Origin: Rhododendron vialii
Taxonomy: Eukaryota; Streptophyta; Magnoliopsida; Ericales; Ericaceae
DNA: 64,000 nucleotides
Direction: 5' to 3'
Assembly: GCF_030253575.1 (NCBI RefSeq)
Contig: NC_080566.1
Location: 16,338,501-16,402,500 of the forward strand
Within the stretch, counting starts at the first letter, position 1, and each line of letters opens with the position of its first letter. The notes beneath the pieces were generated by a model. The model saw only the letters and a list, made by a program, of their open reading frames with translations, ran no database searches and was not told where the DNA came from. Shown here piece by piece: positions 1 through 63,310 of the stretch. The position numbers and the translations under genes are program-made.

Positions 1-1983
1 ATGCTCGCTTACTCGGTGATACTGATCTCTCGGATGGATCCTCTCAAGTATCTATTCGAGAAGCCAGCACTTACCGGTAAGCTAGCGCGTTGGTTGCTCT
101 TGTTAGCGGAGTTCGAAATCAAGTACATCACTCGCAAGTCAATAAAAGGGAGAGCGGTGGCAAAGTTTTTGGCAGATCGTCCGATTGATGGGCCAGAGCA
201 CACAGAATTTCAATTCCCGGATGAAGATGTGATGTCAACGGTCAATGAAACGTGGATGTTGTACTTCGATGGAGCTGCAAATCAGAAAGGATTCGGGATT
301 GGCATACTGCTGGTCTCGCCTGAGGGGTCGCATATTCCCCTCGCATTCAAGTTGAACTTTGAAGTTACGAACAACGAAGCTGAGTATGAAGCGTGTATTG
401 TAGGAATGGAAGCCGCGTTGGAAATCGGTGTCAAGGTGCTAGAAGTCGTCGGAGATTCCAACCTGGTTGTATCGCAAGCAAGCGGAGAATGAAAGGTCAG
501 AGACGAGAAAATGAAGCCGTATCATCAGCAGCTCGATGAACTTCTCCCGAATTTTCAAAAGGTAACCTTCACGCATGTACCGAGGATGAAGAACCGCTTC
601 GTAGACGCCCTGGCCACTTTGGCATCCATGTTGGAACTTCCAATTGGGGTGAAGCTGAGGCCTGTCCTGATTGAGCAGAGGGGAAAACACGTGTACGACT
701 ATGTCATGAACATCAACAAACCGGACGATGGGCTCCCTTGGTTCTACGATATTCGAAATTTCGTCGAAAAATGGGAGTTCCCTGCGGATTCAACTAAGAA
801 AGATCGGATCGCGCTGCAACGACTCGCATCTCAATATATCATCTGTGGAGGACAATTGTACCGGCGATCTCCTTGCGGAGTTCACAAGTTGTGCGTTCAC
901 GGTGACGACATGAAAGCAGTAATGGAAGAAGTTCAAGAAGGAGTTTGTGGACCTCATATGAATGGGATGATGCTGGCTAAGAAGGTGTTAAGGCTAGGCT
1001 ACTATTGGTCTACCATGGAGACAGATTGCATCGAGTACGTACGCCGGTGCCACAAGTGCCAGACTCATGCCAACCTTATCCATGTCCCGCCCTCGGAGTT
1101 ACACTCGATGGCAACGCCATGGCCATTCTCCGCCTGGGGCATTGATGTCATCGGAAAGATCACGCCTGCAGCTTCTAACGGTCATAGGTTCATCTTGGTG
1201 GCAGTCGATTACTTCACTAAATGGGTCGAAGCAGCTTCGTACAAAACTTTGACGACGGTTCAAGTGGATCACTTCATCAGGCAAAACATCGTTTATCGGT
1301 ATGGGGTCCCTCAAGCATTCGTATCTGATAACGGTGTTCATTTCAAGGGAAAAGTTCTGGAACTCTTTGAGGAATTCAAGATCCAAGTACATCATTCAAC
1401 CACTTATCGGCCACAAACGAACAGGGCAGTTGAAGCAGCAAACAAGACTATTAGGACGATTCTGGAAAGGACTACTCAGTCAGCAAGAAATTGGCACGAA
1501 CAGCTACCACTAGCTTTGTGGGGATATCGGACGTCTATCCGTACACCGATAGGGGCAACACCCTACTCTTTGGTGTACAGTATGGAAGCCGTTCTCCCCA
1601 TCGAGCTAGAAGTGCCATCTTTGAGGGTCATGGCGGAATGCGAAGTGGACGAAGCTGAATGGATCAGCGGGAGGTTCGAGGAACTCATGCTGTTTGATGA
1701 AAGAAGACTGCGCGCGCTATACCACATTCAGGGCTATCAGCGAAGAATCGCCCGGGCATTTAACAAAAAGGTGAAGTCAAGGGACCTATAAGAAGGGGAC
1801 ATGGTGGTCAAGGAAATCCGTGCGCCAATTTTCGACTTACGAGGGAAGTTCAGACCTAAATGGGCAGGGCCCTACATCATCAAGACCGTCCTCTCTGGAG
1901 GAGCAGCTTCAATCGTCGACCTCGATGGCAACGAATTCACGAATCTTGTCAATTTGGATCAACTCAAACGTTATTATCCCTGA
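1..1983 (+). pseudogene. pol: Tat-A pol fragment: RNase H end, archaeal-type RNase H, integrase
   Basis: The fragment starts at the end of the RT-linked RNase H (LISRMDPLKYLFEKPALTGK). A second RNase H of archaeal type follows (LYFDGAANQKGFGIGILL, then NNEAEYEACIVGMEAALE and VVGDSNLVVSQ), the mark of Tat elements. The integrase has an HHCC finger (HKLCVHGDD with CHKC near 1050), the catalytic residues in WGIDVIG, FVSDNGVHF and AVEAANK, and a C-terminal domain ending LDQLKRYYP. Two in-frame stops break it: TGA at 490-492, where relatives have Trp, and TAA at 1789-1791, where relatives read LVEGD or LAEGN. Both are point changes and the frame continues after each. The integrase catalytic residues are intact, but the fragment is not translatable as one protein. 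Confidence 0.95.
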
Positions 1984-2481
1984 GAGAGCTCGCTGGGCCG
2001 AAAACCGCAAGGGCGGGCAGTTCCAGGCAAAAGTTAGAGCAAGCCTGCTAGGTTGAAAACCCGAGAGGGCGGCCTAGGCAAAAGTTAAGGCAAATAATCA
2101 AAGAGAAGCTCGCTGGACCGAAAACCCGAAAGGGCGGTACTAGGCAAAATTTAGAGCGCAAAAGGAGAGTGTCAATACCCGAGTGAACCCGTAGCTTGAA
2201 CTACGTGCGGGCTTGATTCTCTTTTATGAGGGATACGTAGGCAATCTCATCTCGAGATTTGGTTCTAATTCCTAAATATTAAAATCCAATCCCAAATCAA
2301 GTCCAAATTGACAAATCCAAAACGCTTTTCAGAGCCGCATGTGATCAAATGAACTGAAAGGGGGAAACCCTTAATCAGTTGATTTTATTCAGATTACTTC
2401 TTTATTACAAGCTGAGCATGAAAATGAAAAAGCACAAAATCAAAGCACACTTTTTATTTCGAAGTCTGGCAAAGTAAGCAG
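1984..2481 (+). repeat. Tat-A tail between pol and the convergent gene, with three degenerate repeat units
   Basis: Just after the pol stop, three imperfect units of about 55-65 bases run to about 2160. They share GCTCGCTGG, GAAAACCC, GGGCGG and TAGGCAAAA. A block containing GGATACGTAGGCAATCTC follows near 2230. Both parts recur after pol in Tat-E1 (36740-36972) and Tat-E2 (51720-51992). The minus-strand DUF7745-like gene ends at 2482, so this is a tail-to-tail spacer; use as a terminator or polyadenylation zone is inference. Confidence 0.75.
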
Positions 2482-3687
2482 TCAACCCATCCTTGCTTTC
2501 ACATCCCTCCTTAGCCATTTGCGGTACCTTCCGGTCGAAGCAATAGAAAACAGTGGGTCACTTGGCTCGGTCCTACGAGTCCCCCACGACCGAGTGTAAC
2601 TCCAAAGGCCCGGAATATTGAAGGGAGGGAGACGAAGCACTTCAGAACCCGACTACGGCACCTCCTGGCTAAGTCCAAGCTAACGGAGAACACGGAAGGG
2701 GGAGTAGAAGGAGAAGCCTGTCAAGCCAGCCACAAACACATGCGTCGAGCCCATGTTGCCAACGGTCATAGCAGGAAGCCTCAGCCAATGGCACCGCCAA
2801 GCAATGTCATCTTCCTCCGCAGAAGCAAGGAAATCAGCCCAATCATCTTCACTCCCATACATCACTTGAAAAGGACAGTTCCATCCACTTGCACGATACC
2901 ACCAATCATTGGCTGGGGGTGTCAACAGACTTAATTTGTCGCAAAGCCACATCTGTCAAAAAGAGAGAAAACAAGTAAGGAGCCAGATAAAGCCTGAACC
3001 GACTATCGAGGTAAAATGAATGAGAGAAATAGAAAAAGGAGAGCTGAGTGAGGTCCCTAACCTGCAGCAACAGCAGACTACCACCAAAAACCCTTGTACG
3101 ACCAGCATGAACAACATCTAACCCAATCAAGGTTTTAGCAAGAACCAATGGCGCAACATCCTTGCGAGCCTCAATCTGAGCAGCAACCCCCACCAGTGAG
3201 GAATTGGGCTGACCAACGGACGAAACCAACAAGAAGGCCGCCGGGGGCAAATGCAACAAGCCATCATCCTACGACCTTGGTGCTCGAAATCCGTCAAGTC
3301 TCCAGATGGGCTGAACCTTTCGTACAACTGCACGATGTTAATGGCATTACCCCGAGTAAGAAACTCAGCGACGTTACCACTAACACCCAGCTTTGCCTTC
3401 AGAATATTCTTCATGCTTTCCCTAATCATAGGAACAACCGGCTCAGCAGAGTCATGGCTTCCGAGATAAGCATGAAACTCCTCGACGGTGGGGCACAGTT
3501 CTTGAGAACCAAAGCGAAAGATGTGCACCTCTGGATCCCAGAAGCGCGCCGCCGCATGCAGTAAGACGGGACGAATTGCAACCTTTCGGAGATGTCTTAG
3601 GGCGTAAAGCCGATGCCCTCGGAAGTTCAGCCAGTCGATGCCTTCAAGACTGTCCAACCAAGGGCGAAGTAGGGCTTGGTTTTGCAT
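2482..3687 (-). pseudogene. DUF7745-like antisense gene of Tat-A, two exons, broken
   Basis: Exon 1 runs 3687-3062 and begins MQNQALLRPWLDSLEGIDWL; conserved patches are RFWDPEVHIFRFG, LCPTVEEFHAYLG and QLYERFSPSGDL. It ends CAG|GTTAGG. Exon 2 begins at 2952 after an AG acceptor (MWLCDKLSLLTPP) and carries WRCHWLRLP and GFSFYSPFRVLR. A stop at 2680-2682 falls where the other copies have Gln, and a second stop follows shortly after. The frame then reads on to GRYRKWLRRDVKAR and ends at 2482-2484. Exon 1 is 626 bases, one short of a whole number of codons, which places a frameshift near 3250. The family is an uncharacterised plant family that I recall as DUF7745; the name needs a profile search. 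Function unknown. It has its own TATA box and converges on pol. Confidence 0.8.
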
Positions 3688-3760
3688 GGTGATGGAAAGA
3701 ATGGATTTTTGAAAGGAAATGATGAAATGAAGTGTGAATGGCTTACCAAAGGAGAGCCTG

Positions 3761-3770
3761 GTATTTATAG
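3761..3770 (-). promoter_or_regulatory. TATA box of the Tat-A DUF7745-like gene
   Basis: The minus strand reads CTATAAATAC, 74 bases upstream of the start codon at 3687. The E2 copy has TATAAATT at a similar distance (50207-50214, 72-79 bases before its ATG), which supports a real, conserved promoter. Confidence 0.65.
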
Positions 3771-4035
3771 AAGCTTAAAGTGGGCAACACCACTTCCCCA
3801 CCAGCCTTAAAACTCATCAAGTTTATCATTTTCAAAATCTTTTCAAAATTCAAACTTTGGAAACTTGGAAAATATTGTAAAAACCACAAGTCAAGCTTTG
3901 GGAAGCCCCTGTTCTGGGAAAGCAGCTAATACGAAGCCATTCAGGTACATTGAAAGCGTGCGAGCAGAAGAAAACAACAAAGGATAGCTAATAAGTGGCA
4001 TTGGAAAACAAGAAGGGACAGTCCATGACAGAAGT

Positions 4036-4094
4036 CCAGAGCGCTCGGGAGTGAAGTCCCAAGCGCTCGAGACCACTCTCGAGCGCTCGAGAGT
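4036..4094. promoter_or_regulatory. Family-A palindromic motif cluster, DUF7745-like gene promoter
   Basis: Three copies of a motif with core GAGCGCTC occur in 59 bases: CCAGAGCGCTCGGGAGTG, TCCCAAGCGCTCGAGACC and CTCTCGAGCGCTCGAGAGT. They lie about 350-410 bases upstream of the DUF7745-like start codon. The same motif recurs upstream of PMD-A and in the Tat-A LTR but not in Tat-E1 or Tat-E2. Confidence 0.7.
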
Positions 4095-4950
4095 ACTGCT
4101 GTTTTGCAGCAGATTCTAGTTTCCCCATTTTGGCTTCCATGCAACATTGAAACCCTGTATCATCAAGTTTAACAGTTCCCAGCAGTTGTCTAAGGGGTAC
4201 AGCAGTTCTGTCCATATGTTTTGTCGAGTATTCAAGTGTGTTACGTGAAAAATCACAAGTTTTCCAAAGTTTTCACTCCTTGAGCATATCAGAATCCGTG
4301 TCAAGGGCATTTGGTCGAATCGAGCAACACGCTTGAGCCATGACGAGCCTCAATGACTGTTTGACGCACTCCAAAAACGTGTTAGCACTCTTAATTCGAG
4401 TTTTCATCATTCAATCGTACCAAAATCATCATTTTAAATGCAAGTGTCGATTGTCAAAAACATTTCAGTAATTCTCCCGGCCCCCTCGAGTCACAACACT
4501 CATTCTCAACCGCGCAGCGCACTCGGTTACGATCAAAAGCCCTTAAATCTAAATTTCATGGTCGATCGCTCGAAAGTTTGTTGTTTGGTGTCGATGTCGA
4601 GTTTTATTCCTCACTTTAAGAGTATCGGTCGAAATTCGCGTACTCTTTACGTTCTTTCAAAGCTAGACGAACATATTTCATAAAATACAATTCTGTAACA
4701 GCAGTGCGAACGAATAAAAGAATAAAGTGCGAATTCTCATAAATGAACACGGTATTTACAATGAGCAGAGAAAGAAGTACAAAAACTGGGGCAAACACGC
4801 GCCCAAATCCTAACTACCGGGGCACGCAGGCCCGAACAAAGCTGAGGCACGCAGGCCCAAAATCTACAACTACGCTGGCATGAAGGCCTATGTACAAAGT
4901 AAAGCTAGCAAAGCAAAACACGAGGCTCAGACCCATCAGATTCTCTTCTG

Positions 4951-7900
4951 CTATGGTCCCGCGGACTCAGAACTCTTGGGCTCGTCATCACCGTCGTCGT
5001 CAGGAGAACCAGAAGCAGTACTCGAGTTTGACGTCCCCAGGACACGTGACTCGGAGGACTCCTCTGTCCCCTCCTCTATCCCCTCCTCTAACTCCTCCAG
5101 CTCCACGCGAGCTGGTTTCCACTGAAGCGCCTCCCGAGGCAAAACCTCGAACCGTCCCGCGCCCACAGCAAGCCGTGGCGCACGTCCTGCACCCCGACCT
5201 CGCGTACTGGCAGGAACGGGAGGGCTCGTGGCACCCTGCGGGCGCATCCTAGCTGAACGTCGTGGCGGCACCTGCATACCACAAACATTTTCTCATTCTG
5301 TGCATATTCGAATGTAACTTTGCTCAAATCAAAATATAGAATATATGTGCATGTTATACCTGAGTGGCAACAGGAGAAGTAGTCACAGGGACAGGTCTCG
5401 TTTGAAGGACTCTCCCCTTAGCGCAGTCCTCCAAGAGGTGACGCATCCCCACCATCAGCATCACGGCCTGCTCAGCCCACTCTCGCGGCACCTACAGAAT
5501 GATCCAAGATTCAGAATATACAAACAGGGAGTGGTCAATATACAAAGCAAACGGAAATATTGTTTATGCCTGAGCAGGAAATCGCATCGGTGGCTATGGG
5601 AGACGTGGCACGTCGATCACCTCCCATGCGCCCGATGAACTCGTCACGCCTATAGTCCACTTCAGTGTCGGCAACGCCGGTGGTGCTGAAGTCTCCGTGG
5701 TCTCTGGGACCCTTGTGCTCCCCTCTCCCCTACCTCCAGTACCTGCACCTCGCCCGCCAGTAGGGGCTCTAGCACCTCGTCCTCGACCCCATGCAGAGCG
5801 ACCACCGCGGCTCCGCGCTCCACTCTCGTCCCTCCAAGCTCCCATTCCAGTTACCCCGTCTCTCGAACTCCTCCTTCACCCCCAGGCTCCTCGCCAAGTA
5901 CCGATCTGCATAAGCTACGTAGTCCAAAGAGCGTCGAAGGTGCCTCTCCAGATCCGTGTCCGGCACGGTGAACAACTCAAGCTCAGCGCGAGTATAGGAC
6001 TCAGTCCTCTGCACGCGTGGGGGAAGCAGCCCAGGAACCACGAACGCTGGAAGACCAAGTGACTGTCGAGTCACTCGATCCCCCAGGTACCACTGCCAGC
6101 CCAGAGGGCACTCCAATAGGACCCTGCTCCGTGTCACCTCCCGACTCCTCGGAAGGAAGTCAGCCTCCATCCCCGCCCACCTGTCCCAGTGAACCTGCAA
6201 TTCAAATTTTGGATTCATTCATAAGTCTACTCGCCGAAAAAAAAATTGATAAAAGAAAAGCAAGAAGTGTCGATTGTACCACAACCCCTGTCAGGTTATC
6301 CAGCCAGCGCCGGAAAGTCATCACCTCCCCTCGTCGCTCCTTCGCTCTCTGGTATGCCTTACCCCAGGCTAAGCCGCGTGGAAGTAAGTTCGGGTCCGTA
6401 CAAGTATTCTCGGGTGGGAACATCCCGAGAACCTCGTAAGCCCAAAGCTGCAAGTTTCATAATTCAAAGTCGAATAATCTCAAATGCATAATTCAAGTCG
6501 AAAAGCAGTCGAAAGCAATTCAAAAGCAATAATTCAAGGTTATACCTCAAACACCCGCCAGTACCCTCCAACTGTGTCTCCGACCCCGCGAGAAGCAGCT
6601 CCAAGAAGACAGTAGAGCATGCACAGAGCAGCACCTCCCCAGTCGAAGCGTCCCGTCTGTCCCAAGTCAACCAAGCCCGCTAGATAGCACAGGTGCACCC
6701 GGCTACGCCTGTTCGAGAATAGAGAAGCCCCGAACAAGTATAGCAAGTACGCCCGGGCCATCTGGGCCTCCTCCTTGTCGGTCGCAGGCTCGTGGTCCCA
6801 GTACTCCACGAACTGCCCATAAGCTGCCATCCCCCCGCTGTGGTGTGGCACTCGCCCGAGGAACCACCTCAGAGCCGCGTCGTCCAGCACCAGACTCGAG
6901 TCATAAGGGATCGGGTCTCCTCCAACCCTGAGCCCTGTGATCGCCGCGAAGTCGAGTGGCGTCACCGTCATCTCCCCGAACCGGAAGTGGAAGGTATTGG
7001 TGGTGTCCCACCACCTCTCCGCCAGCGCTGTAAGCACAGCCCGGTCCACCCTCACCATTGTCAACAGCTGTACGAAGGGTCCGAACCCTGCTGCCTCCAC
7101 TAGTGCTCGCACCCTCTCAGGCAAGGCCCTAAAGTGCGCCAGTGAGCTGGCTGAGCCCCCGTGGCCGTACACGTCCGTCGTGCGCTGTTTCAACAAAGCA
7201 AGAAATAGCATTAAATCTCAAGCAGGAAATAAAATTTGAAGTAATTTGCGAAATTCAAGAAAAGATAAGTAATCGAAAACTCACCGTGACCCATCCGGAG
7301 GAGATGTGTGAAGCTCGGTCCCGGAGAAGCATCTCCTCAGGGTAGTCAGCATAGCCGGGGACGTAAGCCGTCATCCCCACAGGCTTGAAGAGGTGTGGTT
7401 GAGGAGCATACGTAGCCGGAGTGAACTCGGGCCGCTCCCTCGCCAGATAGGCTCGCCGCTCCTCCAAGTAGGCTTTCGCCTCGTCTACCGCAGTAACCCG
7501 TACCTCAACTGTCGCCTCGGCATGCACCCTGTCCGCTCCCAACTCCTCTGCCTCCGGTACAACCACCTCCGGAGTGCCCGAGCCGGCTCCGCTCAGCAAA
7601 GCCCCTAAAAGCAACGCCAAAGCCCGGTCCTCAGGCGTACTAGTATCCCTCAGCACCGCCGCAACCCCAGGATCGACACCGAACGCGTCCAAGACATCCC
7701 GAGGCTCCGCGTCCTTCAGGAAGTCCCCGTCCGCGAAGGGAACAGGGCGTGAGGACCCGATCCCGCTATCCCCACTCCTCGGCTCCAACACCGTCGCCGT
7801 CCTCAGCACCGGCGTCTCGCTGAACTGTCCAACAACTACCTCCTCACCACCATGGTCGGCTATCCCCCTGTCGCTTGCCCGCTCGGCAGCCGCAAACAAC

Positions 7901-8232
7901 TCCTCCACGGTAGGGGTGAGAGGCCTGCTCGAGCCTCCGCCTCCGCTGCCCGAGCCTCCGTCCCCGCTGCCAGAGCCCCCTACTGCCGCCACCTCGGCAT
8001 CCTCACAGGCAGCGACCGCCACTGAGCTCCCTCCGGCGACCCCCGGGTCACCAGCAGCTGCCACCACCGCGGCACCGGCCGTGGCGTCCCCGCCGCTGAG
8101 CTCCGCCCCTGCGCCACCGCCATTCCCCCCGGCTACCACCACCGTGGCACCAACCGTGACCCCCCGACCGTTGGGCTCCGTCCCATCGCCGCCGCCGACC
8201 ACCCCGTCTTCATCCCCCCGTCGCCATACCAA
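4951..8232 (-). pseudogene. PMD-A: plant mobile domain (MAIN/MAIL-like) antisense gene of Tat-A, six exons
   Basis: Exons on the minus strand: 1, about 8232-7286; 2, 7184-6546; 3, 6447-6280; 4, 6194-5570; 5, 5491-5360; 6, 5271-4951. All introns are phase 0. Exon 1 is Gly/Ala/Ser-rich, then helical and charged. Exon 2 carries the plant mobile domain signature LTALAERWWDTTNTFHF and MTVTPLDFAAITGLRVGG. Exon 3 begins LWAYEVLGMFPP; exon 4 has LLECPLGWQWYLGDRV and a Gly/Arg-rich end; exon 6 is basic then acidic. Exons 2, 3, 5 and 6 are open. Exon 4 is one base over frame and has a stop (RLP then TAG); intron 4 has a GC donor. The only ATG near the start is out of frame across a G run, so the true start is uncertain. 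Arabidopsis MAIN and MAIL1 act in gene expression and transposon silencing; a role for this copy is inference. Confidence 0.85.
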
Positions 8233-8330
8233 GATCGGGAGAGAGAGAAGATCGTGAGAGAGAGAGAGAGAGGATCGTGAGAGAGTGGATTGAGAGAGGA
8301 TTGAGAGAGTCGAGAGAGTGAGAGCAGTTA
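8227..8330. repeat. GA-rich simple repeat in the PMD-A leader
   Basis: About 100 bases of GAGA runs interrupted by GATCGTGAGA and GATTGAGAGA units lie directly before the PMD-A coding start. On the gene's own strand this is a CT-rich leader, common in plant 5' UTRs. Confidence 0.8.
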
Positions 8331-8353
8331 GTGAAAAGGGGTGCGGTCGATCT

Positions 8354-8472
8354 GGTTCTCGAGCGCTCGAGAACCAGGGTTTTACCCCCCTAAATCAAAA
8401 AGGAAGATGAAAGGGCGGTGGACCCCAGCGATGGTCCCGAGCGCTCAACACCACTCCCGAGCGCTCGGGAGT
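8354..8472. promoter_or_regulatory. Family-A palindromic motif cluster, PMD-A promoter
   Basis: Three motif copies lie 122-240 bases upstream of the PMD-A start. One is a perfect 22-base inverted repeat at 8354-8375 centred on GAGCGCTC. One is degenerate (GTCCCGAGCGCTCAACACC, near 8434). One is a perfect 20-base palindrome, ACTCCCGAGCGCTCGGGAGT, at 8453-8472. This places the motif at the second antisense promoter as well. Confidence 0.75.
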
Positions 8473-9077
8473 GGGCCCAGAGCACTTGACTCTTTTCGTC
8501 GCCGTGCCATACTTTTCGTAAGTTCATGCACTTCACCTTGATTAATGATCATTGTCCTTCAAGAATTTTTGCAAAATCAATCTCAGTCCTGTTTAAGTTC
8601 GAGTCGAGACAAAGCAATCGACGACGGATGTTGTTTCGCAATCTATTCTGGATCATCCTCATCCGCCCAAAAAGTTCTGCTTAGAGGTCGATAAAAAGTT
8701 TCCTAATCATCGATGTATTCACAAGAAGTTTTACCCAACGCGTAGTACTTCTTTCATCATTTTGTCCACCGAACAAAGTAATGGATGGGCCCCATTTCTT
8801 GTCTCTATCATTGTCAAAGCACTTGTCGATCTCTTTCCAATGCATGCATCACACGTGTTTGCATTTGCCCAAAGAACTACGCTGGTCTGATCCCTGCAGA
8901 CGGGGTACGTAGGTAGTCTGAAAAGACACGACCTCATGCATTGAGTGCTTATATGCTTTTTATTTGCATTTGATTCGCAAATTGAGGATTTGATTTGGCT
9001 CGAATTGGGTTGTCTCGATCTTTGGGGCGACACTCGCGTCCAAACATGACGCCGAGCGCCGTCCAAAGAGGGGCAAC
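8473..9077 (+). other. Tat-A sequence before the 3' LTR, with polypurine tract
   Basis: This stretch has no gene. Near 8900 it has GGTACGTAGGTAGTCTG, resembling the block after pol. Directly before the LTR, 9062-9077 reads TCCAAAGAGGGGCAAC, a purine-rich plus-strand priming tract placed as expected for a plus-oriented element. Confidence 0.7.
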
Positions 9078-9279
9078 TGTAGACACCCCAATTTGGACTT
9101 GTCAAATTTCCTTAATTTGTGGCCCTGAGGCTCCCCGATGATGAATATGGATCCGAACAAGCCATGTACCAATAGAGACGTTGCTCCTTAAAGGAAATGG
9201 CCAAAATCATTCCCAAGCACTTTGAAGCAGTCCCAAACGCTCCAAACTGTTTTCCAAAAATCACTAGCCTGGCTCACTT

Positions 9280-9340
9280 TCAAGTGCTTGAGAGTGAAGT
9301 CCCAAGCGCACGCTACCACTCCCGAGTGCTCGAGACCTCT
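9280..9340. promoter_or_regulatory. Family-A motif cluster upstream of the Tat-A LTR TATA box
   Basis: Three decayed copies of the GAGCGCTC-centred motif (for example TCAAGTGCTTGAGAGTG and ACTCCCGAGTGCTCGAGACC) lie about 190-250 bases before the candidate LTR TATA box at 9529. Spacing and pairing match the other clusters, but the copies are less palindromic. Confidence 0.6.
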
Positions 9341-9528
9341 CCCAGTGCCCAATAGGTGAAGAAGATTCCCACTATCCATGCAAGCCATCATTGCATTCCC
9401 CTTGAACCAGCTGAGATGAGTCAACACTCAATCTCAGTCAGAGAAGAGATTAGCTAAAGATTTCTTTCTTTAAAAAGGGATTTATTTCAAAATCATTTGA
9501 TTTTCAAAAACCATGGGTTATATCCTCT

Positions 9529-9539
9529 TTATATATACC
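9529..9539 (+). promoter_or_regulatory. Candidate TATA box of the Tat-A LTR
   Basis: TTATATATACC lies about 450 bases into the LTR on the element's sense strand. The Tat-E1 and Tat-E2 LTRs have CTATAAATAC at comparable places. Confidence 0.5.
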
Positions 9540-9878
9540 TTGTCTTTCAGCAAAGAAAGGGGGGACGAAAATTCTCTCTCTCTAAACTCCTCCTCTTTTC
9601 TCTCTCTTGTTCAAAGGAAAAAGGCTTAAAAACTCATACTTCTTCAAAGGTTTTCTTCACTCTACATCCACCTTTCACAACCATCCAAGGAGCAAAGTGT
9701 CAAGCAAAGGTAGAAATATTTCTATCCTTGGTTCAAATCAAGAGGCTGTTCTCCCTTTTGAGGGGGGTCTCTCAGCCTGTCCCAGTCCTTAATGCTGGGT
9801 GCATGGTTGGGAGACCTTAGTGAAAAAGCAAGAGCAAAGAGTCCACGAATAATGTTTTCCCAAAACCCCTACTAGAAA

Positions 9879-40464: not shown

Positions 40465-40500
40465 AAACTCTGACTCTGAGCTAGACCTAGACTTGACAGA

Positions 40501-43580: not shown

Positions 43581-43583
43581 GGT

Positions 43584-53700: not shown

Positions 53701-53744
53701 AGCCCCGTCGAAATATAACTTTCAAACATCTTCAGCTAGTGTCA

Positions 53745-55733
53745 TTATGTCTTCGTCAGGAAACTTAACTCAGCATCTTCACCTCCTTCAACTGGGCAGT
53801 CGACTAGGAATTCAGCAACTGCTCTTCCTTTTAGGGACTTCCTAGTGATGTATTTTAACTCAAATACTGCTAACATCAGTAGCCATCGTGCCATCCTTCC
53901 TGTAAGGGCCGGTTTCTCGAACAGATACTTGAGGGGGTCCATTCGAGAAATTAGCCTTACTGGATAGGTTAGCATATAGTGCCTCAAATTCTTAGAAGCC
54001 CAGACGAGTGCCCAGCACGTCTTTTCCAACAGAGTATAACGCTCTTCGCATCCGACCATCTTCTTGCTCAGGTAATAGACAGCCTTTTCAACCCCATCGT
54101 CTCTTTCCTGTGCCAACATACACCCCATAGAAGATGAAGTGACTGATAGGTATAGGATCAAAGGTTTTCTCGACACAGGAGGCATTAATACCAATGGATT
54201 TTGTAGATAAGTCCGAATCGCCCCAAAAGCTTTCTGGCACTTGTCATCCCATATGAATGGCACACCTTTCTTGAGCAGGCGGAAGATTGGTTCGCAGGTC
54301 GAAGTTAGTTTGGCAATGAACCGACTAATAAACTGCACCTTGCCGAGGAAGCTTCTCACATCCTTTTCGGACCGTGGCAGCTCCATTTCTAGAATAGCCT
54401 TGATTTTGGATGGATCGACCTTGATTCCTAGGGTGGTAATCATGAATCCGAGCATTTTTCCGGCTGTGACTCCAAATGTGCATTTGGTCGGGTTAAGGTG
54501 CATCCGGTATTTTCTGATCCTCGCAAAGAATTTTCTAAGTGCAGGTAAATGTCCTTCTCGCTCCGTGGCCTTAACGATCATGTCATCAACGTAAACCTCT
54601 ACTTCCTTATGGATCATGTAGTGCAACAAGGTCATAACGGCCCTCTGATAAGTAGATCTTGCATTCTTTAGCCCGAAAGGCATTACTCGATAGCAAAAAG
54701 TTCCTCATTCAGTGACAAATGTGGTCTTCTCCCAATCCTCGAGGGCCATTAGGATGTGGTTGTATCCTAAAAAGCCATCCAAGAAAGAAAGCAAAGCACG
54801 CCCAGCGGTATTGTCAACCAGTACATCAATGTGCAGTAGTGGAAAGTCATATTTCGGACTTGCTTTGCTAAGATCCCTGAAGTCAACGCAAACCCTAATT
54901 CTACCATCCTTTTTAGGGACAGGAACAATGTTTGCAATCCATTGAGGGTATTCGGTTACCATTAGAAATCTTGCGTTGATCTGTTTAGTGACTTCTTCCA
55001 TTATCTTAAGCGTCCAATCAGGTCTCTTGCGTCTCAGTTTTTGTTTTACGGGTTTTGCATCAGGATAAAGGGGGATCCGGTGTTCCACAATTTCAGGATC
55101 GATTCCAGGCATATCAGCATGCGACCATGCGAAAACATCTTCGAATTCTTTCAACAAACTTATGAGAGCTTGACGCTCTTCTGCGGATAGCGCATAACCA
55201 ATTTGAATCATCCGGGGATTCCCTTCATCTCTCAAATTTATTAAAACAACTTCTTCTTTTATAGGCTGAGCATGCCTTTCATCTTCCCTTTCAACTAGGG
55301 ATCGGATTTCTTTAGGGATATCCACATCGAAATCGATCTCTTCATCATCAGGGATGACACAATTTATTTCGAAATTAGGGAGGTAAGTGGAATCAGGTTC
55401 ATTTATTTCACCATTAGCAAAAGCCTTGGGGGCACCATACACACGGGTTGACTCAAATTCAAAGTACAGACCATGGGGAGCTAAGCCAAGAGGCACCAAC
55501 TTAGACTCAACAGACTCGGAAGACTTAGAAGACTCAGATTCAAACTCGGACTTAGAATCAGACCCTTGGCACGTTGCACTTGGTATGAAAGTCCACTTTT
55601 TGTAATTACCCGTGGCATCCATGATGAGCGAAGTTGGATCTTCGGGGACCTCCTGTCCCAGCATCAATACTTCAGCTTCCATGACTGTACCCATTGGTTC
55701 GTCCTCCTTGAACAGGACCGCTAGACTTCCCAT
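53745..55733 (-). pseudogene. pol: Tat-E2 reverse transcriptase and RNase H
   Basis: The upstream frame (55733-54705) has ADMPGIDPEIVEHRIPL and RVCVDFRDLSKASPKYDF, ending in a TGA after TTFVTE where Trp is expected (WGTFCY). The frame resumes with MPFGLKNARSTYQRA, the intact box EVYVDDMIVKA, FGVTAGKMLGF, RNase H (YLSKKMVGCEERYT, KTCWALVWASKNLRHYML) and the start of the link to the second RNase H, ending at 53745. One nonsense change separates two otherwise good frames. Confidence 0.9.
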
Positions 55734-55862
55734 GTTAAAGACCTCAATCGAATCAGTTGGTTTCTCCTATTCTTTGGCAACCTCGAATTCTTCTTCACTT
55801 TCTGGCCAAACATCGTTGGCGAATATCTCGAACCCTGGTAGTAGAGTATTAGTTTTCTTATC

Positions 55863-56807
55863 TCAAAACGGTTCTGGCTGACCTTGGTAGACCTGCTTTG
55901 CTTTCTCTTTAACAAAGTAGCCTTCAAGTCTATCCCCCTTTTTCACTTTACTGCCGCCTGAGATCAAATAGCCAAGGCCAGTAGTGCGCATCAGAGTTCC
56001 ACAGGCTTCAAACTTTGCAGGTCCTTGCAGGTTCTTTCCTAACCCTAGACCTGGCATGTAGGACATCTTTTTCATTATCTTTACGGCGATATTGCTAATG
56101 ACAAAATCTTCATCAATCCTGACCGAAAAGACAGCATTGGAAGTATCCAACAAAAAGCCTCCTAGAGCAATGTCTTCTTCCCCATACTGGATTTCCAAAA
56201 GTGGGGCATTGTCTTCAGTAGGTGCGCGGATCCCAGAGTCTCCATGAATAGTGAGCATTCCTATCTCAAGTCCCAAATGGATCTTCTGGTGAAGGGTGGA
56301 GGGTACAGCCATAATGTTCAGTTGATGTAACCAGGGCCTTCCCAACAACAAGTTGAAGGAAGCAGGGATGCTCACCACATTGAATTCCACCTCAGTTTGA
56401 TAAGATTCGAAAGTCATAGAGAGCATGAGGGTTCCAACCACATTGCAACGAGTGTCGTCATATGCTTGGACTTTGACTTCCGATGGAGAGAAGTCCTTAG
56501 TTTTGTACCCTAAGTAGTAAGCAACACAGAGCGGGCAATCGTTGATGGCTGACCCATTGTCGATTAGGATCACTAGAACCCATTTACCATGACATTTCAA
56601 AGTGACATGGAGTGGCCTATTGTGGTCTGTTCCTTCGGTAGGCAGATCTCGATCGATGAAGGTTATGGCATGCTTGATGGGTATGGTCTTGATGAGTGCC
56701 ACGAGTTCATCTGGGGTTATACGGGAGGGAACTTTCAGATGGGAGAAGGCTTGGATGAGCCCTTCTCGATGGCGAGTGGAATGAACAAGTACATCCCAAA
56801 CAGACAT
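55863..56807 (-). pseudogene. pol: Tat-E2 protease region with G-patch-like motif
   Basis: 315 open codons with the protease motif VILIDNGSAINDCP, NLLLGRPW and HGDSGIRAP. MSYMPGLGLGKNLQG and TTGLGYL form the G-patch-like motif. A stop (TAG or TGA class) after QPEPF ends it at 55863; the frame then continues into the acidic linker before RT. Confidence 0.85.
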
Positions 56808-57132
56808 TTTAGCTTGAGTCTGTTCGAGCTGTTACTTGACCATCCCTTTAGAGTTTTTCTTGGGACGGGAAGGCTCTTTGGTTGGCGGAGCAAAAGGTTG
56901 GAAAGTGTTTTTGGTCGGGGTAGTGAAAGGGTTTGAGGGCTCTTTGGCTGGTGAAGCTACGGGGTTAGAGGATTCTCCGATTTGGAGGTTGATAGATACG
57001 GCAACTCCTGGTCAGGTGGTCAATCTAGCGATACTTTGATTCTTCACTCCATAAGTCGATCGGAGCCTTGCGCTTGGTTCCAATGGTGGTATCCTGGAGG
57101 TTGGATGCTAGATCAGCGATAACCAGATCTTC

Positions 57133-57816
57133 TTAAAGGTCTTCTGGTTTCCATTGCTCAACTTTCATTACTACCTTGTTCACAGTCCATTCCTCATTTC
57201 CCACTTTTATGTTGATAACTTCGGAGTTGGCCCATGGACTCGCTTTGGCTCCTGGTTTGTCTTCCCACAAGTTCATCATGGCGATATCAACGTCCTCTAG
57301 GAAGGTGACTAATGGTTCTGATTCTGCTTTTTCCACAATGTAATCCATGGGGTTAAACTCGCTACTGGCAACCTCTTCCTCTGGCTCTGGGAGCCCTAGA
57401 TTCGGATGCCATGGGGTATGGCCGACGTAGTCATCAAAATTATTGAGATGGTAGAAGTCTGGAACAAATTCTGGCCAACCACTGGCTGTTATCTCGGATT
57501 GGTATTCTTCAGCAAACATTGTAGGTAGAGAAAACATATCCAGCAGGTCATCCGTGGCTAAAAGCTGATATTTATTGGTGGGGGTTGGGTCCCATTCCAA
57601 CTCGGGGACTTCTTGAGGGATCTGATAGTTCTCGTTCTGGCCTTCGAACATCATGTATAGAGAAAGTCCATCGAGAGGGTCAGCATGAACATTCTGCCAA
57701 TCAGCTTCCCATCCAGGCTCGAATGGTGGTTCAGCATCCCTCTGAAAGTTGGCTGCTTTGAATTCTTCCCAATCTGAAACGAGGTCTCCCCACGTATTTT
57801 CCCATTCCCACAGAAA
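57133..57816 (-). pseudogene. Tat-E2 acidic ORF between gag and protease
   Basis: The frame 57654-57133 is open (MMFEGQNENYQIPQEVPEL ... VEQWKPEDL). Upstream, in the same frame, are ADPLDGLSLY and a Trp/Glu-rich start. Shared with Tat-E1: ADPLDGLSL and (N/S)EEWTVN or SEVWTVN. Unrecognised family, conserved in position. The frame stops after PEDL; the following 300 bases to the protease are degenerate. Confidence 0.72.
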
Positions 57817-59219
57817 TCAAAGAGCAATTTTCTCGAAAATTTTCACAATTGGCTTAGGTTCAGTATTAGAGGTAATGAAAAGGGTTGGATCAAAATCTTG
57901 GGTGGTTTGATCTGGGGTTAAGGTGATTTGGTTGTTATGAAAGGGGGTGTTATGTTGTGGTAAAGGTTTTGAAATGGTATTTGGTTCATCTAGAGGTGGA
58001 GTGTCAATAACCTTATTGTCAATGAAGTTTTGGATCTCATAACGAAGGCGAATGCAATTGTCGGTGGTATGGCCAGGCATCTGATGGAATTCATAGTAGA
58101 CACTTTGGTTTAGGTTTGGTGGAATGGTTTGTGGTGGTTGAAAAGGTTTCAACACCCGGATCTCTATGAGCTTCTTAATTAATGCAAATCTTGGGGTGCT
58201 GAATTGGGTGAAGGTTCGATTTTGGGATTTTGGTTTTTCGAAAATTTGGTTCACTTCTACGAGCTTGGCGGATGAAGTTCCGGCCTAATTCACATTCCCG
58301 GAAAGAACGTTATTGTTACCAGAATATGCTCTTTTGTACTTTGACCCCATTTCCTTTTTCTCTAGGGTGCCATCTTGCAAAGCTTCCTCTACAGCCAATC
58401 TAGAGTCATAGAAAGTTTCGAAATTTGGGGCGGCCTAGGAAAGAACCGTGTATAGGCGAAAGAGCTTGACAAGTTCTTTGTAATGATTCGTATTTTCTCC
58501 TTAAGATCTGGCTTGTTTTGCATTTGGGCGGCCCTGGCCCTCCAACGTTTTACAAAATCAGCGAAGCTTTCTTTCTCACCCATCTTAGTGCTTTCTAGCT
58601 CTCTCGTGGTCATTTTTAGATCAACATTGAAATCATATTGAGCTACAAAGGCTGTCCCAATATCTTCCCAAGTCCTTTTTTTGGATGGTTCAAGAGTAAG
58701 GAACCATTGCAAAGCTGGACTAGACAGAGACTCATGGAATAATTGTGCCATGACTTCCTTTTCAATTCCTCGCATGGTGAGAGAGCCAACATATCCCTGA
58801 AGGTGTGCCTTTGGATCACCACTGCCGTCAAACTTCGCAAAGTCCACGCCTTTGAACTTTTTTGGCAACTTGGTGTTCGGGAATAAACACAGATTGTTCA
58901 TGTCGACTTCTCCTTTCCCAAGTTGCCTGGTTTCTTGGACAAACTCCTCTAACTTGCCGATCTTGGTAATAAGAGCAGCCAGCTTAGGATCCGTAGCTGA
59001 TGCTTCTTCTTTGGGCTGCTCATACTATGGAGGGGGTTTGGTTTGAAACTTATCACTAATTTCTTGCATGGCCTCCATCACCATGATCATGTCATTATTC
59101 ATAGATGCAGCGGAGGTCTTGAGTTGTGCATCAACATTGGCGATAGACTGTTTGAGTTGGGTATCCAAAGCAGCCATGTTTTGCCTAAGCTCCTCTACTC
59201 CATCTCCTTGGTCGGCCAT
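57817..59219 (-). pseudogene. gag: Tat-E2 gag, broken
   Basis: Start at MADQGDGVEELRQNMAAL (59219). A stop follows QTKPPP near 59025. The capsid-like part (58901-58389) has KFKGVDFAKFDGSGD, KKRTWEDIGTAFVAQY and KESFADFVKRWRARAAQM. Frameshifts follow. The knuckle frame (58254-57817) has EFHQMPGHTTDNCIRL, with Tyr in place of the first Cys. Confidence 0.85.
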
Positions 59220-60284
59220 TGGTAAGGAATTTTCAAGTGGTATCTCTATTGAGGGTTCTTGTGGTGTTTCTGTTGACAGTTGTCCTTCCTGTACTACTTG
59301 AACCTCAAACAACTGAGTGCCTTTCAGGGTGTCTACGCGAACCAGTCTTCGGAGTGGACGAAACCAATTGGGTACAGCTTCTTCTTGCGAACGACCAATG
59401 TTTCAGAACTGGCAACAAAGCAGAAAGAGAAAACTTTCAACTCATCACGAATACTCGCCCTACCCTTCCTCGTGCCTCATAGAAATTAGGCCTAAGACCT
59501 ACCGCGATCCGGACCTCGCCTAAGGTGTTTCTACAGAAGATTTCCAACAATCCGGCTAGGTGTTGTAAGGCAGGTTAAATTCCGAATGCTTCAGAATCAG
59601 AGCCAATCTCCTTAACTTGACTATCCGAGGCAGAGCAATATGACCGCTAGAATCCAGATACGCACACACTTAAGGCCAATCCTGGATCAAGGGAGTCGTT
59701 CGGGCACGGCAAACACTAGAGGTATCTCAAACTCCATAGATTTAGAGTCTCCTAAACTGACCGAGTATTAAGGGAGTCCTATCCTTTAACCTGCACGATG
59801 CAATGATGCATTAAATTGCATTAATGATATGCATGTACAGAAAAGAGAAGTACATAAACATGATATATCACATAAGTCCTAACCACGGGTTCCTGTCTTA
59901 GTTGGATGGTTCTACAGTTATGTACAAGTGCAAAGGCTGGTTTGGGTCTCAACAGGGTTCCCCGGACAAGAGTCAAGTAGTACTTCTCATTGTCAAGTGT
60001 ATTGCAAGACAGTGGTCGAACAGTACGATGGCTCATCATCGTCGAGGGTTGCAAGGCATCCCGGGATAGCTTGTCACCGGTAAATCGGGCAATATTGCCA
60101 AAACACACTGGCGGGGCTTGTGTGGTGCAGAGTGTACAGGATAAAAGAGTTTTATTTTCCAAAAGATATTAAAATTTCCCCTTTGAAAATGTCTTTCAAG
60201 CTTGGCTCTTGAAAATTATTCAATTCTTTGAAAAAAAAAATTCCAAAGTTTCGAATAATAGAATCTCCCCAACAGAGTCGCCAC
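59220..60284 (-). other. Tat-E2 leader with primer binding site (60266-60283)
   Basis: On the minus strand TGGCGACTCTGTTGGGGA begins one base after the LTR end, the same site as in Tat-E1 with two differences. The leader has no gene; it shares blocks with Tat-E1 and, at about 59697-59760, a 60-base block with Athila-E3. Confidence 0.82.
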
Positions 60285-60690
60285 TGTGGCTACCAGACCG
60301 GCGGGTGCTCGAAGAGTCGCCACCAAGATTTTTGAGATGGATGATCCAAGAAACCGAGAACTCGTTTGGAAAAAGACTTTTGGTCTAGCGAAAACGTCAA
60401 GACTTTGGGTCCGGGAGCCACGTTACGAATGGAGAAGAGTTTGTTAAGAAAAAGTACCCCTTTCACCTGGTAAATCGGTCTCTACTAAGCATTTTCAAAA
60501 GGAGCAATTTTAAATATCTTTTAGAAAATCAAATTCTTTAATAAAGCAAGTAAGAGGGGAAGGGACACGGGGAATATATCACATTGGCGTGTACATGGTG
60601 CTTACTGTACATGAATGATAAGAATGATGCCAGGAAGAAAAGAAGAAGGAAAAAGAAAAAGAAAAAGGAACTACTCAACAAACTGCTTGG

Positions 60691-61148
60691 ACTACGGCCA
60701 CCCATCATACGGCATACCACAATGCCGCGCATGGCATCACACTACGCCGTGCGGGGTACTCGTTTTATTACTAGACTGTCATCAGCATCCAGAACATCGC
60801 CCGGCATAATTTAAACCTCGTGCGCCATTTTTCAAAAACATCAGAAGATGTACAAACACTGGATTGTCTCGGAACAGTACCATTTCTTCAAGCCTTGAAC
60901 ATAAAACAACTTTTGACATATTTAATCGCTTGAGATGATTAAGAAAACCTTGTTTATAAGATAAAACATGGCTTGTAGACATGGTCTTGTTCTGATAGCG
61001 CTAATGACAGACATATCAACAACGAAAACAAGCTTAACGAAGGATGGTCATGATCCAGACAGTTTGAACAAGAAAGTAGCTGCTAACAAAAGGCCACTTC
61101 GAACATACAATGTCGTGCAACGGATCAAAGCGCCACACGGCATGGTAT
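60691..61148. promoter_or_regulatory. Family-C motif copies in the transcribed part of the Tat-E2 LTR
   Basis: Copies include ACTACGGCCACCC, CATACGGCATACC, AATGCCGCGCATGGCAT and ACTACGCCGTGCGGGGTA at 60691-60760, decayed copies near 60790-60830, and GTCGTGCAACGG with GCGCCACACGGCATGG at 61098-61148. Confidence 0.65.
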
Positions 61149-61423
61149 CTTCAGCATAGTGGCTGTTTTATTTTCTGGAAATGATTTTTAAGTCAAAACT
61201 TAACCAAAAGGGGTTAAGCCTAACGGCAGGAAAGCCCCCTCAGGGCCAGGACAGAGCCTGACCCAACAAAACTTGGTTTTTACCTTTGATCTTGAGCTTG
61301 AATGGGGATGGATGATGAGAAATGATAGCGGATGAATGATGTGGGTGGACGAGATCGGATGAGAAAAGATAGGTGTGGGTGTGAGTGGTAGTTGGGTATT
61401 TTGGTGGATGAGATCTCAAAGTT

Positions 61424-62725
61424 AGGGGTTGTTTGATATCCCATATTCAGCACTTAAAACTGAAATAATTAAGTAATAAGTGATTAAGTAGGTTTGATAA
61501 CCACATTTTATGTTACTTAACCGATTAAGTGCCACTTAAAATGTAGTGTAAAAAGTTGATAAAAATTAAGTAGTTTTGAACTACTTAATTTTGACTGAAT
61601 TCTTATATGTTTGCACTCAACCACCACCACCACCACCAATCCTCCACCACCATCGTCACTCAACCACCACCACCACAAACGCCACCACTTCCACCACCAA
61701 AACCGCCACCACTCCCATCACCACTCCACCACCACCATCACTACTCCACTACCACGTTATCACCACCACAACCATCACTATTCCACTACAACGCTACCAC
61801 CACCACAGCCATTACCACCACAACCACCATCACTCCACAACCACCACCACTACTCCACTACAACCACCATGACCATTACCACCAACACTACTCCATTCCA
61901 CTCCACCCCCACCACCATCACTTCACCACCACGCTACCACCACCACAACCATTACCACTCACCACTAGTCCACACCACCATCACCGCCATCACTCTGCCG
62001 CCACCACCATTACCACATCACCCCTACCACCACAACGCCACCATTGCACCACCACCACCACAACCGCCACCACTCTCTCCTCCATTCCACCACCACCACA
62101 ATCACTACCACGCTAACCACCATCACAACCATCACTATTCCACTACCACCACTACCACGCTACCACCACCATAACCACCATCACTCCACCAACACCGCCG
62201 CCGTCGCCGCCACCACCACCACTCTACTACCACCACCATAACGCTACCATTACCACAACCATTACCACCACCACTACTCCACTCCACTCCACGCCACGCA
62301 CCCCCACCACCATCACTTCACCACCGCCACCACAATGCTACCACCACCACAACTATTACCACCCACCACTACTCCACTCCACCACCACCATTGCCACCGC
62401 CGCCACCACCACCATTACCACAACACCCGTACCACTACTACCACGCCACCGCCACCGCCACCACTATAACGTCACCATTGCACCACCATCATTCCACCGT
62501 CACTATCACACCACCATCCCACCATCACCCTCACCACTACCATTCCATCACCACCACCACCACTACAATCACCAAAACTAAAGAAAATTAGAACTAAAAT
62601 TAATTCATTAATTTTAATGCAGTGCTTAATATGTTTATCAAACAGTTCTTCATCTTAAAAAATTCAGCATTCAACTTTCAGTACTTAACTTTTCAGCTTT
62701 CAGTTTCAGTTTTATCAAAGACTAA
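61424..62725. mobile_element. Candidate MITE carrying a CCA-rich array (array 61614-62575)
   Basis: Flanks of the array are AT-rich and resemble each other in inverse: left GGGGTTGTTTGATA with AGCACTTAAAACTGAAA, right (reversed) CTTTGATAAAACTGAAA with AAGCACTGCATT. The inverted ends are inexact and I cannot fix a target duplication. Between them lies nearly 1 kb of CCA/CAC trinucleotides broken by CTACTCCA, CATTACC and ACGCTACC interruptions. Long His- or Pro/Thr-rich frames here are artefacts of the repeat. Confidence 0.55.
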
Positions 62726-62905
62726 CTTTGATGGTGAGGAGAAAAATGTAGTAAAGTACTTAAAGAATGTCTTTTGGGAATAACATTCTCAAGGCTCGGG
62801 AGTAGTGAGTGGATGTAAAGGCAAGAAGAGAGAAAAAGGTTATGAAGCAAGGCCTGAGCCCTTTCTTTAGAGAGCTTGGGACTATTTTCTCTTGAGTGGA
62901 GGGGT

Positions 62906-62915
62906 GTATTTATAG
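62906..62915 (-). promoter_or_regulatory. TATA box of the Tat-E2 LTR
   Basis: The minus strand reads CTATAAATAC followed by ACCCC, identical to the Tat-E1 LTR box. Confidence 0.7.
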
Positions 62916-63061
62916 GCAAAAGCCAAGGATTTTGAATTCAAATAGGGGAGGTGTTTTTCCAGGCGAGTTAGAAGTGCCTTTTTTAGCTAAGTCATTTTGT
63001 AGCTGTGGCTTAAGTGAGCATGGTTGACAGCTTTCTGAGCCAGCCAGAACTTTACTTGAAA

Positions 63062-63150
63062 TGTTGTGCGGTTAACCTCATTACCTCGTACGTCGTAATA
63101 ATTTTTTACTACGCTGTGCGGTGTAAAAGTGTTATGCGCGGTATTCTAAG
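63062..63150. promoter_or_regulatory. Family-C motif cluster upstream of the Tat-E2 LTR TATA box
   Basis: ATGTTGTGCGGTTA, CTCGTACGTCGTA, CTACGCTGTGCGGTGTA and TTATGCGCGGTATT lie about 150-240 bases before the TATA box in element orientation. Confidence 0.62.
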
Positions 63151-63310
63151 TCCAGTCTAAGGTTTTTGGGTTTTTGGTTCGGGCTTTTGGTTTTATTTGA
63201 GCCTTTTGGGTTGAGGGAGTCATTCATCCAAGCTATCAAAGGTATTGTTTCCTTTATTTTATCATCAGGACATTCAAAGAATCTCCGAGGCCCAGATTGG
63301 AGTGTCTACA

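Follow-up and report, generated by a model that had tools for sequence, protein, structure and literature searches.

What might a retrotransposon gain from two genes that run against its own pol? The question is raised by a window of 64,000 nucleotides of Rhododendron vialii DNA (C10:16338501-16402500, part of an assembly of 532.6 Mb in 13 contigs, which was the genome searched), in which three nested long terminal repeat (LTR) elements assigned to Tat, here termed A, E1 and E2, each carry a gene of the DUF7745 type and a gene with a plant mobile domain (PMD), both antisense to pol and both placed between pol and the 3' LTR. The order of this cassette is constant, with the DUF7745-type gene adjoining pol and the PMD gene adjoining the 3' LTR. 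The answer developed below, to which a probability of roughly 0.5 is given, is that the cassette is a private, VANC-like module of self-recognition and control with which a Tat retrotransposon keeps its own family active. A fuller version falls a little short of even odds: two paralogous proteins of the PMD superfamily, to which VANC would also belong, would read palindrome pairs specific to the family, set two turns apart in the LTRs and cassette promoters of their own element, and would keep these LTRs and promoters active, through a site architecture of their own that diverges between co-resident families.

An earlier sequence-only reading of this DNA had proposed that three Tat elements share the antisense two-gene cassette, and the Pfam matches, together with an order and orientation alike in all three, bear this out. 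The gene models, broken in each case, place the DUF7745-type gene of A at 2680..3687 on the minus strand (two exons, 3687-3062 and 2952-about 2680) and its PMD gene, also on the minus strand, at 4951..8225 (exons about 8225-7285, 7184-6546, 6447-6280, 6194-about 5850, 5491-5360 and 5271-about 4951, the start being uncertain). On the plus strand lie the PMD gene of E1 at 30142..33970 (exon 1 from 30142), its DUF7745-type gene at 35228..36355 (two exons) and the DUF7745-type gene of E2 at 50286..51393. The two exons proposed for the DUF7745-like gene were thus found in A and E1; the six exons proposed for the PMD gene are a model in A, in which the borders of exons 1-4 match those of P0001, a predicted Rhododendron vialii protein with 95% identity across 81% of the length, and exons 5-6 are backed by splice signals and by P0003. 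The genes stand at equivalent places in the elements, and E1 and E2 have clean target site duplications (TSDs), so that the genes are not separate nested insertions. TATA-like boxes precede the DUF7745-type genes of A (~80 bp before the start) and E2 (~80 bp upstream) and the PMD gene of E1, which makes separate antisense promoters likely; upstream of the DUF7745-type gene of E1 such a box was looked for and none was seen. Exon 6 of the E1 PMD gene is acidic, with a basic cluster that may resemble a nuclear signal.

The suggested profile check with PF10536 and DUF7745 gave matches over the cut-off for PMD in A and E1 and for DUF7745 in A, the rest being below. For PMD (PF10536, cut-off 34.9), exons 2-4 of A reached 5.1e-38 (131.6 bits) and the exon-2 piece of E1 5.1e-13 (49.3 bits), and the exon-2 piece of E2 stayed just under the cut-off (1.4e-8, 34.7 bits). 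For DUF7745 (PF24924, cut-off 26), exon 1 of A reached 3.6e-6 (26.7 bits) and E1 3.8e-5 (23.3 bits, below the cut-off); the E2 piece gave no match as such and, with X written at its stops, 2.4e-5 (24.0 bits, likewise below). The DUF7745 profile was matched by 24/24 aligned relatives at E up to 1. The same profiles point to a kinship between the two genes: at E up to 1, the PMD profile detects 22 of the 24 DUF7745 proteins (best 1.3e-7), and P0187 matches both profiles near full length, scoring above the cut-off for PMD (2.1e-12, positions 9-345 of 347). A profile-profile comparison of 82 PMD with 84 DUF7745 proteins gave E 7.8e-5 (probability 61.5%, 263 columns), as against E 0.32-0.86 for its controls (three column shuffles and one reversal); a shallower comparison of 22 and 24 proteins gave E 0.088. 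Judged by these matches, DUF7745 is a diverged relative of PMD, a link that is new here, and the cassette consists of two diverged members of one superfamily.

A further link, also new here, leads to DUF1985, the domain of the VANC anti-silencing family, which PMD resembles: of 22 PMD proteins, 16 have a DUF1985 match at E up to 1 (best 1.2e-4), none of them over the cut-off. The best DUF1985 match seen, that of P0094, has 6.3e-6 and 26.6 bits against a cut-off of 35.1, and the PMD protein of A scores 15.3 bits. A DUF1985 match over the cut-off, taken as one mark of a VANC protein, was not found among the proteins compared; by profile resemblance, the PMD/DUF7745 superfamily probably includes VANC. 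Solved structures compared with the PMD profile gave no match at E up to 1, and one scan of viral contigs yielded no relative.

The second line of evidence concerns the noncoding DNA of A and E1. All 4096 palindromic 12-mers were counted blind, with 2 mismatches allowed and with 4 Markov resamples; the word with the top z-score in A was CCGAGCGCTCGG (14 sites, 0 expected) and that in E1 was TGGCGTACGCCA (13 sites, 0.25 expected). Elsewhere the count was far weaker, with 7 sites for the best word in E2 (0.75 expected) and 5 (0 expected) in a further LTR element, inserted at 12751-26051, which served as an internal control for the motif analyses. Both palindromes are CpG-rich, and they differ from each other. 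AT-rich palindromic words are also enriched in E1, at up to 16 places, and probably stem from its 30-bp repeat array, which lies at 29058-29905, in two 423-bp copies, between the 3' LTR and the PMD gene. The palindrome sites are found in the LTRs, upstream of PMD, upstream of DUF7745 and in PMD exon 1 of E1, and gag-pol holds no site of its own family at up to 2 mismatches.

These sites come in pairs. With up to 4 mismatches allowed in the partner, 12 of the 14 A sites are paired at exactly 20 bp; in E1, a partner stands at exactly 21 bp for 8 of the 9 sites outside the 5' LTR and for 2 of the 4 within it. When pairs are tallied across all spacings between 13 and 59, the spacing of 20 accounts for 7 in A, with no more than 1 at each of the others; in E1 the spacing of 21 accounts for 11, LTR copies being counted, with no more than 2 at each of the others. 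Neither E2 nor the inserted LTR element contains a pair of the A or E1 motif. The 3' LTR of A holds five pairs at exactly 20 bp (9302..10696: 9302/9322, 9884/9904, 10183/10203, 10482/10502 and 10665/10685), which are also present in the 5' LTR. Upstream of its PMD gene (8359..8468) there is a pair at 20 bp (8437/8457) with a single site, and upstream of its DUF7745 gene there are three sites (4037..4090), forming one pair at 20 bp (4059/4079) and one at 22. The pairs of E1, at 21 bp, comprise four in the 3' LTR (27424..28667: 27424/27445, 27689/27710, 27950/27971 and 28635/28656, some pairs having one site with as many as 4 mismatches), three in the 5' LTR (47148/47169, 48281/48302 and 48359/48380), two upstream of DUF7745 (34884..34961: 34884/34905 and 34929/34950), and, within 29931..30372, one upstream of PMD (29931/29952) and one in PMD exon 1 (30340/30361). 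The spacing is constant and the linkers between paired sites vary, most of all in E1, those of A being partly alike. Pairs stand ~180-420 bp ahead of the presumed start codons of PMD in A and E1 and of DUF7745 in A, E1 and E2.

The same spacings emerge from a self-comparison of noncoding DNA that uses no motif (14-base windows, at least 10 identities, 60 Markov resamples). Peaks were obtained at 20 bp in A (12; resample maximum 4), at 21 bp in E1 (6; 4) and at 20 bp in E2 (5; 4), each reached by 0/60 resamples. The gag-pol region of E1 gave 0 at 20 and 1 at 21, that of E2 gave 1 at 20, and the inserted LTR element gave 5 at 20 and 5 at 21, with a mean of 2.66 per spacing. In the 5' LTR of A the 20-bp peak returned (7; resamples at most 3), but this LTR is a copy of the 3' LTR. 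A stricter scan for pairs of near-perfect palindromes retrieved only 3 pairs in A and E1, besides one other place. As would be asked of a VANC-type system, A and E1 carry family-specific motifs that are dense in noncoding transposable element (TE) DNA. Apart from this, the gag-pol region of E2 (51601-59024) has an unexplained self-similarity peak at 33 bp (8; resample maximum 7).

In E2 the candidate motif is ACGCACGGCGTA, with five sites at 49870..49991 upstream of DUF7745, including two pairs at 20 bp (49870/49890 and 49960/49980), and with single sites in the LTR. The E2 parts of the stretch account for 10 of its 23 hits (3.25 expected), and held-out E2 sequence contains 6 hits against 0.75 expected, some of them LTR copies of known sites; 2 of the 6 lie upstream of PMD, in the last 1.35 kb before A. 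A CpG-tolerant scan found 3 pairs at 20 bp in E2 against at most 1 in two resamples, the inserted element also having 1. Paired sites in E2 are probable but unproven, and weaker than those of A and E1.

Beyond the window, the A core was searched genome-wide as GAGCGCTC N{5,35} GAGCGCTC, which returned 432 close pairs as against 5 for a control read backwards. In the first 50 of the 432, on contigs 1 and 2 and measured start to start, the spacing was 20 in 23 pairs, 22 in 9, 23 in 3, 19 in 2 and 21 in 1, with larger spacings of 40 in 1, 42 in 7 and 43 in 4; none of these 50 fell at 13-18 or 24-39. The genome also holds at least 136 PMD matches, including one class with dozens of copies and similar stops (profile 2-241). 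Among 20 exon-like places fetched from the 136, with 10 kb each, DUF7745 or a Tat integrase was found in 0/20. With PMD that shares only 26-35% identity with the Tat type, these places form a contrast set and no measure of how frequent the cassette is in Tat elements. In R. molle, gene-order linkage was read from the locus tags of the listed hits (the best 120 of 189 for PMD; 38 plus the best 120 of 231 for DUF7745), and 5 of 12 DUF7745 loci had a PMD locus no more than 10 genes away (1.83 expected, P 0.012). Other distances gave 5/12 within 20 (P 0.083), 3/12 within 5 (P 0.06) and 1/12 within 1 (P 0.30), and with two neighbours merged the counts were 4/11 within 10 (P 0.042) and 2/11 within 5 (P 0.23), so that the linkage in R. 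molle is only suggestive.

The cassette itself is old. Between A, E1 and E2 its protein pieces are ~40-61% identical, and Rhododendron and metagenome proteins include, for both genes of each family, closer relatives than the other families in the stretch. The best relatives of the PMD exon-2 pieces share 95% (A), 83% (E1) and 90% (E2, over 52 residues; 88% over 66) identity and those of the DUF7745 exon-1 pieces 92% (A), 81% (E1) and 73% (E2), the weaker case being DUF7745 exon 2 of E1, with only 58% (E2, 76%). Past selection was assessed by codon comparison of the alignable pieces between families, with bootstrap limits, as proportions of nonsynonymous (pN) and synonymous (pS) differences. 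For PMD, pN and pS were 0.305 and 0.689 (A-E1, 345 codons), 0.309 and 0.819 (A-E2, 261 codons) and 0.318 and 0.714 (E1-E2, 179 codons); for DUF7745 they were 0.354 and 0.808 (A-E1, 273 codons), 0.370 and 0.849 (A-E2, 138 codons) and 0.415 and 0.752 (E1-E2, 140 codons). The resulting pN/pS of 0.38-0.55 (upper bootstrap limits 0.45-0.68, with synonymous divergence dS at 1.9-2.3 or saturated) compares with 0.19 (A-E1) and 0.22 (A-E2) in the integrase region: the cassette was under real constraint, yet it changes about twice as fast as pol. These figures also contain changes from decay since insertion, and while selection acted the ratio was probably lower still. A low ratio at near-saturated synonymous sites means an old arrangement on which selection has acted, and with the family-specific relatives it upholds the earlier claim of an old and kept arrangement. 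The idea that the captured genes are passengers without benefit can draw on the breaks in all six copies, yet with this ratio, and with order and strand equal in three families, it is scarcely credible.

How such a module might work can be sketched as follows. PMD and DUF7745 would be two nuclear proteins, expressed from their own antisense promoters; one or both, as a dimer, would bind the palindrome of their own family, two dimers sitting on one face of the DNA, two helical turns apart, at the LTRs and ahead of the two cassette genes, a layout to be expected of a self-acting regulator. Binding would keep the LTRs and the cassette of the family transcribed, most likely by excluding silencing marks, as VANC does for VANDAL, and protein and site would drift together, so that each family serves itself. 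The sequences show the gene pair with its order and strand, past selection, the superfamily link and the family-specific paired sites of A and E1; antisense transcription, binding of the sites by the cassette proteins, dimer binding, nuclear location and direction of effect are all inferred here. The presence of different palindromes in two families of one genome argues for a factor made by the element. Anti-silencing is the first choice for the direction because VANC, which would share the superfamily, lifts silencing within its own family, and the chief rival is repression.

Several observations weigh against this proposal. All six cassette gene copies are broken by stops or frame breaks in the gene models, and structure models of one PMD and one DUF7745 relative are of low confidence, with mean values of the predicted local distance difference test (pLDDT) of 47.9 and 37.4. 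The genome-wide spacings are a tally of a leading fraction of the pairs, many of which are TE copies and so not independent, though their linkers differ widely. One A-type site, with 2 mismatches, does lie in the gag-pol region of E1. In E2 the candidate motif was picked by eye from its own sites, blind scans for even palindromes did not recover it and found nothing outstanding in E2, the held-out stretches show no 20-bp peak, and the motif-free comparison gave 4 at 21 in E2 gag-pol, a value reached by 3/60 resamples. VANC21 sites, moreover, are arrayed in one orientation, unlike the paired palindromes of A and E1. Finally, TE silencing and the expression of some genes both depend on the host PMD proteins MAIN and MAIL1 (PMC7156037), so that the effect of the cassette could go either way.

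The alternative that survives best, though unlikely, is that the palindromes are read by something else, such as a host transcription factor, or serve as an RNA dimer or packaging signal, and that the cassette has another job, for example nuclear import. The sites are putative targets of the cassette proteins, which leaves room for such a reader, and a review proposes nuclear and regulatory roles for antisense open reading frames (ORFs) in general (PMC7264820). A single host factor would leave the different palindromes of A and E1 in one genome unexplained, sites also stand upstream of the antisense genes, and an exact two-turn spacing suits the binding of double-stranded DNA. Nearly as well placed, and improbable to a similar degree, is a self-limiting repressor, with cassette proteins binding the paired sites and damping LTR and cassette transcription. 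Sites upstream of the cassette genes as well as in the LTRs would fit negative feedback, and Arabidopsis MAIN and MAIL1 do participate in TE silencing (PMC7156037); VANC, the nearest functional analogue by domain, de-silences, and a repressor would presumably gain less from divergence between families.

Distinctly less probable is the view that the pairs are functionless leftovers of short tandem duplications. The partly similar linkers of A would agree with it, the 30-bp array of E1 (29058-29905) shows growth of this kind, and many genome-wide pairs derive from copied elements. The linkers of E1, however, are dissimilar at fixed spacing; the sites avoid gag-pol and are noncoding, with a single E1 pair inside PMD exon 1 as the exception; spacings of 20-21 bp have been reached by two elements whose palindromes differ; and none of the 50 listed genome pairs lies at 13-18 or 24-39. 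The VANC-like module stays the preferred explanation.

The assignment to Tat follows from the pol domains. A single ORF of E1 contains in order a weak end of RT_RNaseH (0.23), RVT_3 (1.3e-21), H2C2 and rve, and A shows RVT_3 (9.8e-9) followed by H2C2 and rve, in pieces; in both, aRH (RVT_3) stands between ribonuclease H (RH) and integrase, as in Ogre and Retand, and this additional domain marks the Tat lineage of Ty3/gypsy. We infer that E2 belongs here as well from pol pieces with 63-86% protein identity to A or E1, its own RVT_3 match being weak (0.2). PMD and the large size suggest the Ogre clade. A G-patch domain in pol near the protease scores 24.1 bits in E2 (55866-56831; cut-off 22) and 19.8 bits, below the cut-off, in E1 (40504-41814).

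Self-comparison, LTR borders and the left flank resolved four LTR elements: A, E1, E2 and the further one. The 3' part of A, on the plus strand, occupies 1..11083, with the end of RH, aRH and integrase at 1-2263, then the antisense cassette, and the 3' LTR at 9078-11083; its 5' LTR was located in the left flank (L009:1350-3358) and is 97.0% identical to the 3' LTR. A has no clean TSD, and its insertion point is the exon 1 region of the PMD gene of E2. A piece of E2 follows at 11084..12750 on the plus strand, with part of PMD exon 1, exon 2 and the start of exon 3, in which the further LTR retrotransposon is inserted (12751..26051, minus strand, TSD AGTAT, LTRs 98.5% identical); similarity to PMD or DUF7745 was not found in it, and its pol region is tandemly duplicated at 16747-21994 (2.6-kb, 99.5% identical). 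The next E2 piece, at 26052..26874 on the plus strand, comprises PMD exon 4 and part of exon 5, and within exon 5 lies E1, with both LTRs, at 26875..48585 on the minus strand (TSD GGCGG). The LTRs of E1, ~1.99 kb each, are 94.8% identical across 1547 aligned bases, and 46520-47038 (519 bp; the end of the 5' LTR and the primer binding site, PBS) lies inverted as compared with the 3' LTR, which puts the PBS on the wrong strand.

The right part of E2, at 48586..63310 on the minus strand, contains the end of PMD exon 5, the DUF7745 gene, gag-pol, the 5' LTR (63310-60285) and the PBS (60283-60266); its 3' LTR was located left of the stretch (L010:4769-7630), and the TSD CACTC flanks both ends. E2 is not contiguous, its PMD gene being split by three nested insertions, so that one gene was hit by three different LTR elements, in the exon 1 region (A, to 11083), in exon 3 and in exon 5. 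It is the oldest of the nested elements, since its LTR identity is the lowest (90.3, 87.0 and 92.9% in three aligned pieces), and it is also the outermost. About 1.3 kb of its 5' LTR (61426-62718, with a long TGG-rich array) is unmatched in the 3' LTR, which has ~1.1 kb of its own; at L010:5809-6820 the latter contains repeated TTTGTGACGAAA-like words and resembles itself at offsets of 21 bp (4 places) and of 39-40 bp (8 at each).

As to novelty, the combined cassette with motif sites had been called undescribed. This holds in part only, since PMD in Ogre/Tat elements is already published; the DUF7745 partner and the paired palindromes were not found in the literature searched. The motif sites, which the earlier reading only mentioned, proved to be the most informative part. 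The superfamily link and the paired family palindromes of A and E1 are new here. No paper with the word DUF7745 was retrieved, and no title was recognised on DUF7745 in retrotransposons or on paired Tat palindromes, in a search whose scope left most subscription papers and all preprints outside. A 2023 preprint is said to treat PMD protein-DNA motif modules and may bear on the motif idea. The available passages on related elements describe no paired palindromes, and counter-silencing by TE-borne PMD proteins has, by such passages, already been proposed. Further related literature, likewise available in part, comprises PMC12859917, PMC12844716 and PMC13317346.

Among known systems, of which the cited accounts were available in part, host MAIN/MAIL1 with PP7L and the DOWN motif (PMC7156037, PMC9899485) share the PMD domain and a promoter motif tied to PMD action, but they are host genes, the MORC1-promoter motif as printed (CATGCAGTTT) is non-palindromic, and their effect on TEs is silencing. 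In Retand (Vicient 2025, PMC11963269), too, a long stretch separates pol from the 3' LTR and holds antisense coding regions that are presumed regulators; its antisense ORFs, in contrast, carry Transposase_28 (PF04195), and the main text mentions no PMD, mobile domain or DUF7745. PMD is the most frequent atypical domain in the Gypsy consensus sequences of one study (PMC9289625) and occurs in 57% of Ogre elements (Neumann 2019, PMC6317226). The PMD-carrying Ogre resembles the present elements in its PMD extra ORF in a Tat element and in aRH between RH and INT; that account, as far as available, gives the PMD frequency only, with no DUF7745 partner or paired sites.

The closest parallel is VANC/VANDAL, of Mutator-like DNA transposons in Arabidopsis (PMC5735166, PMC10398659). 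VANC proteins possess a DUF1985 domain; one of them, VANC21, binds to a noncoding motif peculiar to its family (PMC5735166). As there, a TE-borne protein, here with a PMD that resembles DUF1985, is accompanied by short family-specific motifs in noncoding TE DNA that differ between related families. Unlike there, the cassette resides in an LTR retrotransposon, comprises two superfamily genes antisense to pol and is known from sequence alone, and its CpG-rich palindrome pairs at 20-21 bp differ from the 9-base motif of VANC in one orientation. With a named protein, a short DNA target and a fixed geometry, the roles of Tat antisense genes and the biochemistry of PMD become testable. If the proposal is true, host PMD proteins such as MAIN and MAIL1 may stem from transposon DNA readers, and the sequence-specific escape from silencing would extend beyond Mutator-like elements to the giant retrotransposons that bulk plant genomes.

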